64,000 nt of DNA, taken from the NCBI RefSeq assembly GCF_000025325.1, contig NC_013743.1, forward strand, positions 3,472,001 through 3,536,000, read 5' to 3'. Below the pieces are notes generated by a model. That model was not told the DNA's origin. It made no database searches and saw only the letters and a list, made by a program, of their open reading frames with translations. Below, in pieces: positions 10,949 to 63,040 of the stretch. The position numbers and the translations under genes were made by a program. The stretch's first letter is position 1; every line of letters begins with the position of its first letter. This DNA is from Haloterrigena turkmenica DSM 5511 (GTDB lineage: Archaea > Halobacteriota > Halobacteria > Halobacteriales > Natrialbaceae).

Positions 10949-11084
10949 GTAGATATCGACTAGAGAGGGAGTGGCAATTCCAGCCACCAGCAGGGACGGG
11001 ACACTCGTTTTCGTCCCGCCCCGTTCGAGTTAGCCCGTGAAAAACCTCTCAGAGGCCTGAATTCGGGTCGGTCGTTCTCTTGTT

Positions 11085-11275
11085 GTGGCAACGAGGAATC
11101 GCCTCGCCCTCCCCAGCCGGTTCACTCACTGCGTCTGCTCACGGCGCAAAGCGCCGTTCGCATGGTATGCGGGACCTTCGGTCCCGCACTATTCGTTCAC
11201 CCCTCGCACGGTTTCGGACCGCGGCTCGCTGCCGCTCACCCCGGTCCAGCGCACGCCATCACACGTCGATTCCGG
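11085..11275 (+). repeat. Multi-hairpin repeat, copy R1 (two array palindromes)
   Basis: Begins GTGGCAACGAGGAAT and CCCTCCCCAGCCG, as in the copies at 15.0 and 62.7 kb. Then come two perfect hairpins: ACGGCGC/GCGCCGT, loop AAA (11141-11157), and TGCGGGACC/GGTCCCGCA, loop TTC (11168-11188), with spacer TCGCATGGTA between them. A terminal stem GGACCG/CGGTCC (11216-11221 with 11242-11247) contains the small hairpin GCGGC/GCCGC. The 3' end CAGCGCACGCCAT matches the family. There is no open gene in 10949-11303; upstream of the copy lie only short inverted repeats. Confidence 0.8.
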
Positions 11276-11303
11276 ACGGGGCGGGAGAGCGCCACGAGGG
11301 TAC

Positions 11304-11561
11304 TCACCGGTCGTCGCCGACGGCCCCGAACGCATCTTCGAGCGCTCGTTCGACCGTTCCGCGTTCGGGTATCGCGTTCTGGACGCCCGCAGTCTCGGTC
11401 GCGACCTCGAGGTCCGAGAGGTCGCGACTCGCCTCGACGCGGACGGTCTCGCCCGCGGCCGGAACCTAGTCGTACCGGGCCTCGAGGTCGCGGACCCGTT
11501 CGGCCGGCAGGTACCACGTTCGGTCGACGTTGACGCTGCCGAGAGTCACGACATCGGGCAT
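11304..11561 (-). pseudogene. PfkB/ribokinase-family sugar kinase, internally deleted
   Basis: Reads in one frame of 86 codons. Residues 1-43 are a PfkB N-terminus (MPDVVTLGSVNVDRTWYLP, then VPAAGETVRVE). Codon 32 is TAG where the family usually has a residue before VPAAGET. From about residue 61 the frame reads TAGVQNAIPERGTVERALE, which is a PfkB C-terminus. About 200-250 residues between (substrate lid, GAGD motif) are missing, so it is a nonsense-mutated, internally deleted relic. It lies 42 bases downstream of a sulfatase on the same strand, consistent with a former sugar-use operon, and abuts repeat copy R1. Confidence 0.75.
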
Positions 11562-14844: not shown

Positions 14845-14962
14845 AGCAACCGGCGTGCGGTGGCACGCGCTGGACCGCGGCGAACGGGCAGTGAGGCGCG
14901 GTCCGATGCCGTGCGAGGGATGAGTGAGCAGAGCGAGCGAATCGGCTGGGGAGGATGTGGCA
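14845..14962 (-). repeat. Multi-hairpin repeat, copy R2 (reverse orientation)
   Basis: Read on the minus strand: TGTGGCA near the outer end, CCTCCCCAGCCGATTCGCTC, CATCCCTCGCACGGCATC, a perfect terminal stem GGACCGCG/CGCGGTCC (14872-14879 with 14897-14904, loop 17), then CAGCGCGTGCCACCGCACGC. No array palindromes. It faces copy R3 head to head; about 45 bases separate their GTGGCA ends. Region 14724-15242 holds no gene. Confidence 0.8.
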
Positions 14963-15007
14963 ATCCCTAGCCGCCAGGATGAGCAGCACGCTATCTCTCG
15001 ACTACCG

Positions 15008-15215
15008 TGGCAACGAGGAGTGACCACTCCCTCCCCAGCCGATTCGCTCGCTCTTTCCAGTCGCTCGCTCATCCCTCGCGCACTATCGTCGACCGATCCT
15101 CGTTTTCGTTCACGGCTCACGCTGTTCGCCGTTCACTTTCGAGGTGCTCACTTCGTTCACACCTCGCTTTCCTCGGACACGGTCGACAGCGCGCGCCACC
15201 GCACGCCGGTTCAGT
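15008..15215 (+). repeat. Multi-hairpin repeat, copy R3
   Basis: Starts CGTGGCAACGAGGAG, then CCTCCCCAGCCGATTCGCTC and CATCCCTCGCGCAC. The terminal stem GTCGACCG/CGGTCGAC (15088-15095 with 15180-15187) is perfect and encloses 84 bases containing ACGGC/GCCGT (15112-15132) and CGAGGTG/CACCTCG (15140-15166). The end AGCGCGCGCCACCGCACGCC is shared with the other copies. Confidence 0.8.
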
Positions 15216-62689: not shown

Positions 62690-63040
62690 GGAAGGCCGTA
62701 TTCTGCTACCGTGGCAACGAGGAATTGCCACACCCTCCTCAACCGATTTCCGCTCGCGGGCCAACGGCCCGTCTGCTCACGGCGGCAAAGCCGCCGTCTG
62801 TTCACGGGCGCGAAGCGCCCGTTCACATGGTCGGCGAGACCGGAGGTCTCGCCCTATTCGCACGGTCTGCGAGACCGAAGGCCTCGCACTACTCGCATGG
62901 TTCGCGGAACCGTCGGTTCCGCGCTAACGCTCATTCGCTTCGCTCACTCGCTCATCCATCGCACGGTTTCAGACTACGGTTCGTCACTGGCTCACCGTAG
63001 TCCAGCGCGCGCCACTGCACACCGAATAGCCGGGTAGAGA
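62690..63040 (+). repeat. Multi-hairpin repeat, copy R5 (six array palindromes)
   Basis: Starts with the hairpin GTGGCAA/TTGCCAC (62711-62731) and CACCCTCCTCAACCGATT. Six hairpins with 3-base loops follow, centred at 62764, 62788, 62813, 62843, 62878 and 62913 with 6-9 pair stems (five perfect, one with a single mismatch). Spacers recur (TCACATGGT, TCGCATGGT, CTATTCGCACGGT). Then comes TCATCCATCGCACGGTTTC, a terminal stem GACTACGGT/ACCGTAGTC (62972-62980 with 62994-63002), and CAGCGCGCGCCACTGCAC. No protein gene is credible in 62568-63069. Confidence 0.85.

Follow-up and report, generated by a model that had tools for sequence, protein, structure and literature searches.

A mobile two-hairpin unit of 58-60 bp that probably nests by insertion within its own copies in haloarchaea

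The window, which is the whole stretch of 64,000 nucleotides analysed here from the 5.44 Mb chromosome of Haloterrigena turkmenica DSM 5511 (genome G000), contains two palindrome-bearing loci, R1 and R5, both of which are situated between convergent genes. Their features are as follows.

11074..11262, + strand: host repeat R1, a hairpin-rich intergenic element, GTGGCAACGAGG...AGCGCACGCCA, boundaries approximate (49 partial genomic copies, with conserved ends and a terminal hairpin)
11134..11191, + strand: mobile unit U in R1, TCTGCTCAC-hairpin A-TTCGCATGGT-hairpin B-CTA, 58 bp (block absent at the G002 ortholog; boundaries recur in other contexts, see below)
11141..11157, + strand: hairpin A of R1, ACGGCGC AAA GCGCCGT (string check, covariation, folding)
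11168..11188, + strand: hairpin B of R1, TGCGGGACC TTC GGTCCCGCA (string check, covariation, folding)
11215..11246, + strand: terminal hairpin region of R1, GGACCG...CGGTCC (stem copy-specific in the host-repeat family)
62749..62926, + strand: R5 array AAABBB, three nested units (array parse)
62749..62771, + strand: outermost unit of R5, left half, hairpin A (array parse)
62772..62796, + strand: second unit of R5, left half, hairpin A (array parse)
62797..62856, + strand: innermost (third) unit of R5, 60 bp, TCTGTTCAC...CTA (array parse, unit boundaries)
62857..62891, + strand: second unit of R5, right half, hairpin B (array parse)
62892..62926, + strand: outermost unit of R5, right half, hairpin B of the GGAACC type (array parse)

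A preliminary description had presented R1 as two palindromes that share their spacers with R5 and carry different stems. Every string it named was located in R1 (CTGCTC, ACGGCGC-AAA-GCGCCGT, TCGCATGGT, TGCGGGACC-TTC-GGTCCCGCA, and CTATTCG), and the R5 spacers follow the same order with small differences only, TCTGTTCA replacing TCTGCTCA and TTCACATGGT replacing TTCGCATGGT. The stems are indeed unlike those of R5, where the A stems are CGGGCC, CGGCGGC, and CGGGCGC and the B stems are GGCGAGACC, TGCGAGACC, and CGCGGAACC. The boundary at 11134-11191 is tighter than the one previously drawn, and the two-palindrome unit lies within a separate hairpin-rich repeat (about 11074-11262). The unit is 58-60 bp long with subterminal hairpins separated by a 10-nt spacer, its termini carry no inverted repeats, and 74 distinct contexts share its ends, TCTGCTCA... 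and ...CTA. Hairpins A and B belong to different stem classes and are not inverted copies of each other. As single-stranded DNA, the palindrome stretch of R1 folds at -21.8 kcal/mol in comparison to -8.8 kcal/mol in dinucleotide shuffles (z -6.7), and its folding was far above that of shuffles on either strand, as DNA or as RNA.

Comparison with orthologous loci showed that G002, with flanks about 95% identical, reads CACTTCG^TTTGTTCACC at the R1 locus and lacks unit U, exactly 58 bp, whereas G000 reads CACTGCG(TCTGCTCACGGCGC...GTCCCGCACTA)TTCGTTCACC, the unit being given in parentheses. Because exactly these 58 bp are absent, with both hairpins missing together, palindromes A and B of R1 are one mobile unit and not two separate modules. 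At the orthologous locus L118/L140, a unit lies inside an older unit in G001 and is absent in G000, a one-step difference with 1 nt lost. The third pair is the tail of an IS605-type tnpB gene, GAAGCCCTA^CCCTCAAGGAG (GAAGCCCTACCCTCAAGGAG), which has no insert in L264 and L270, whereas L332 carries a 60-bp unit there, in frame and adding 20 residues; CTA microhomology leaves a 3-bp ambiguity in the position, and tnpA adjoins tnpB in L332. No target duplication was seen at any of these three empty/filled pairs. The direction of change is polarised as insertion at tnpB only, since it is the empty tail that encodes the canonical protein, while R1 and L118/L140 can be read as either insertion or clean loss. 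G001 was uninformative as an empty site for R1, which is covered there by a larger deletion that has removed R1 itself. In addition, about 750 bp of G002 adjoining R1 is missing from G000 (window 11280-11560), with remnants of the downstream gene left.

The unit was also observed in frame near the TnpB C-terminus (EAGSP^TLKE) in L332 (1297-2598), L320, L327, L328, and NZ_CP007059.1 (L456), inside the IS605 element close to its terminus, and the lengthened protein of the last of these, a Halostagnicola plasmid, is annotated as TnpB. Unit U in other genera sits in different backbones, including beside other hairpins. In L316-L319, L324, and L325 (G024, G072), it occupies the middle of a distinct MITE-like element, whose terminal inverted repeats are CTATAGTA. 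The MAG QS_8_65_32 has many copies (L336, L347, L348, L351, L352, L359, L361, L366, L369, L371, L381), most in one context, CCCCCGACACGCTCGGCT^TCTGCTCACGG, which suggests that a composite element spread with the unit inside.

The hairpin order of R5 is A1 A2 A3 B3 B2 B1, with a CTA end after every B. When all loci were parsed in this way, 80 read AB, 9 AABB, 1 AAABBB, and 7 were incomplete, mostly arrays whose absent hairpin is degenerate by eye; a wider parse gave 134 AB, 10 AABB, and 1 AAABBB. No directly abutting ABAB was found in the parsed arrays, nor any B hairpin end joined directly to a next unit, and the three words of BAB type in G000 each consist of two units at different host sites, 12 bp of host repeat lying between them. 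Tandem duplication was rejected as the source of the arrays by the hairpin order. Nested arrays were found too in Natrinema zhouii, Natronococcus jeotgali, and Natrarchaeobius. The copies with 0, 2, and 6 palindromes reported earlier were all observed, and they therefore correspond to n = 0 (empty), 1 (R1), and 3 (R5) nested units. The number of palindromes does vary as had been proposed, but what is gained or lost is the A+B pair, as a 58-60 bp unit rather than single modules, usually nested within an older unit. The interior of unit U, CCG^TTCGCAYGGT, resembles its outer target, and because of this resemblance at CCG^TTCGC new copies would land within old ones; we thus infer that the nested copies arose by insertion.

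The stems vary less freely than had been supposed, since the A stems and the B stems have each retained a core of their own class, mostly GGGCGC, GGGTGC, GGCGGC, and GGCGC for A and TGCGAGACC, TGCGGGACC, and CGCGGAACC for B. In an alignment of 13 sequences, 98.6% of cells pair and two-sided change was found in 6 pairs in comparison to 1.7 in shuffles, counts that are inflated by kinship, so that orthologs were used next. Aligned orthologous loci from six species were examined, and element hairpins were compared with control hairpins elsewhere in those loci; the split is zone-based and leaves one element hairpin (L151/L180) among the controls. The comparisons are between species, not strains, and rest on small counts: two-arm compensated pairs numbered 5 in 20 element hairpins in comparison to 3 in 189 control hairpins, while one-arm changes were seen at 1 of 159 pairs in comparison to 172 of 1295 pairs, and the contrast of compensated and one-arm changes between element and control gave p = 2e-7 at the pair level and p = 3e-4 at the hairpin level. 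Exact inversion of the 3-nt loop was found at 4 of 20 element hairpins and 2 of 189 controls (p = 8e-4), a contrast that is conservative because one control inversion belongs to the missed element hairpin L151/L180 and the other to a poorly aligned pair. The cleanest flip is L150 vs L173/L209, with loop GAA vs TTC and with stems and nearby flanks unchanged, while L112/L169 and L113/L166, and likewise L151/L180 outside the element zone, combine loop inversion with compensated pairs. In the loop pool of all copies, the reverse complement is present for 90-95% of loops, the reverse for 0-1%, and the complement for 7-8%. At L117/L165 the whole A hairpin differs within conserved flanks.

These compensated two-arm changes and exact loop inversions at orthologs bear out the earlier view that stems are rewritten while staying palindromic, and random non-compensatory differences between arms were not seen among the orthologs of these species-level genomes. 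Of the two causes put forward at that time, template-driven repair fits the stems, because the combination of loop inversion and matched arms has been published as the mark of short-range template switching, and a dedicated enzyme is not needed for them. Template switching in inverted repeats is known to cause arm homogenisation and spacer inversion (PMC8604942), and it creates or maintains hairpins (PMC8794818). The unit's hairpins show the same arm homogenisation and loop inversion between close relatives, the difference being its repeated action on a single dispersed archaeal family, whose loop pool is nearly closed under reverse complement. Arm matching and loop flips probably come from a polymerase switching template between the arms of a hairpin.

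Compensatory changes without template switching could come from selection for the hairpin or from gene conversion between copies. Selection on a structural RNA, a terminator, or a protein-binding DNA hairpin would remove one-arm mutants until they are compensated, and the scarcity of one-arm changes in element hairpins relative to control pairs, the strong covariation, the high fold stability, and the position of R1 and R5 between convergent genes are all consistent with it. That selection alone keeps the palindromes is nevertheless rather doubtful, as selection on pairing does not predict the exact loop reversal that is found at ortholog hairpins and throughout the loop pool; two of the four reversals carry two-arm changes in the same hairpin, as from one event, and so does L151/L180. 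About equally tentative is gene conversion or recombination between dispersed copies, in which whole hairpins are swapped with the conserved spacers acting as homology arms. Replacement hairpins at orthologs (e.g., GGGCGC-TTC-GCGCCC) are common elsewhere in the genomes, and conversion may account for whole-hairpin replacements such as that at L117/L165, but the loop-only flip of L150 vs L173/L209 would need a tract ending inside the hairpin, and the reverse-complement loop pairs in the pool are left unexplained.

We consider it probable that the R1 pair is a mobile 58-60 bp unit which nests by insertion and whose hairpins evolve mainly by template switching. A non-autonomous unit would duplicate no target site on insertion and would often enter immediately 3' of a hairpin, ahead of NTCRC-like DNA; CCG^TTCGCAYGGT within the unit would itself be such a site, so that a second and a third copy could enter the first and give A^nB^n. 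Insertion at this interior site would split the old unit, with its A half and B half flanking the new copy. Between insertions, a polymerase copying one arm from the other by short-range template switching would make the arms match and may reverse the 3-nt loop. Read on the opposite strand, the flanking site is GYGAN^TAG and the far end is GTGAGCAGA; the two resemble each other in a way that may recall IS200/IS605 targeting, and hairpin-recognising, IS200/IS605-like single-strand transposition in trans is the likeliest guess for the movement, though unproven. A less likely possibility is that the element is recognised by hairpin shape, possibly by a non-Y1 enzyme, and targets hairpins including its own, so that template switching could rewrite the stems without loss of mobility; if true, shape recognition would let an element that targets hairpins build bracket-like nested arrays. 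It is most improbable that the arrays came, without mobile insertion, from short spacer repeats through slippage in replication or unequal crossing-over. In favour of such an origin, the hairpins are flanked by short YTCAC repeats, palindromes are known to favour the loss of DNA lying between short direct repeats, and L112/L169 is a large irregular loss. Slippage predicts ABAB tandems, however, of which none abut in the parsed arrays, and the unit has the same ends in tnpB, in the TIR-bearing MITE, and in other contexts.

The unit model matched 59 of 80 haloarchaeal genomes (relatives within the order), with 17-44 copies per genome in the window's genus, or 20-49 with a more sensitive search. 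A scan of 84,980 prokaryote species gave at least 120 matches, and among the matches listed all titles were haloarchaeal except that of one MAG, which names it only as Euryarchaeota; the unit was found on twelve haloarchaeal plasmids. A phage or viral origin was set aside, as phage records had no unit match and a search of viral contigs with one exact pattern found nothing. A resident enzyme of the RAYT/Y1-driven REP kind was rejected as well: copy number did not correlate with Y1 transposases (Spearman 0.14, p 0.21), and PF01797 (Y1) had no match in G001, G002, G004, G027, and G041, though each carries 17-25 unit copies. No match placed the unit at the ends of resident TnpB/Y1 transposons, the unit model reaching a best E of 0.27 near Y1/TnpB genes at 44 loci (1.5 kb flanks; the ends would be gene-separated), although in some tnpB genes the unit is present as an insertion. 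No known RNA gene or tRNA was found, and an Rfam search of the 64-kb window reached no family's gathering score.

In comparison with the open-access literature, we call the unit one of the REPIN/PATE kind which differs from both. REPINs, which RAYT moves, are REP sequences that occur in pairs in Pseudomonas, and REPINs have been seen to insert within or beside other REPINs (PMC3116915). The unit is likewise a short, non-autonomous, intergenic two-hairpin unit moving as a pair, but REP hairpins are inverted copies while hairpins A and B are of unrelated sequence, REPINs in ordered clusters stand mostly in tandem while the unit's arrays are nested, and the unit has no RAYT/Y1 partner in several copy-rich genomes and stems that vary within one genome. 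PATEs of Haloquadratum walsbyi are palindrome-associated and IS605-derived, with terminal-only forms of 52 bp (PMC3119063). They share with the unit a haloarchaeal host, short length, near-terminal palindromes, and the lack of terminal inverted repeats and target duplication, whereas the unit has two distinct hairpins, nests within itself, which is not described for PATEs (PMC3119063), and gave no match that ties it to IS605 ends within the 1.5 kb flanks covered. SMR-A of Haloquadratum is transposase-free, makes no target duplication, and inserts into IS605-type transposons and PATEs (PMC3119063); the unit is alike in the first two respects and in being found in IS605-type transposons, but SMR-A is about 110 bp long with inverted terminal repeats and the unit is 58-60 bp without them.

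The unit is a natural record of nested self-insertion by a tiny element, legible as balanced A^nB^n words, and its dispersed copies record template switching as loop flips and two-arm changes; both processes are otherwise difficult to observe. It makes palindrome perfection, beyond selection alone, testable in culturable archaea, as well as the question of what moves transposase-free haloarchaeal elements, among which SMRs have been called enigmatic (PMC3119063).

Some further hairpins were observed around the unit. In L127 vs L156, L172 vs L181, and L176, other hairpins lie within the loop of hairpin A and form branched structures (GGGACGG...CCGTCCC plus GCGGCGC...GCGCCGC). The host repeat occurs twice more at window 14848-15214, in opposite orientation and lacking the A/B unit. 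At the host repeat end (window 11215-11262, 62960-63010, and many loci), a 9-11 bp stem is nearly unique to each copy, while the loop and the flank AGCGCGCGCCACCGCA are conserved, and turnover of the stem seems more pronounced still in this terminal hairpin than in the A/B unit.
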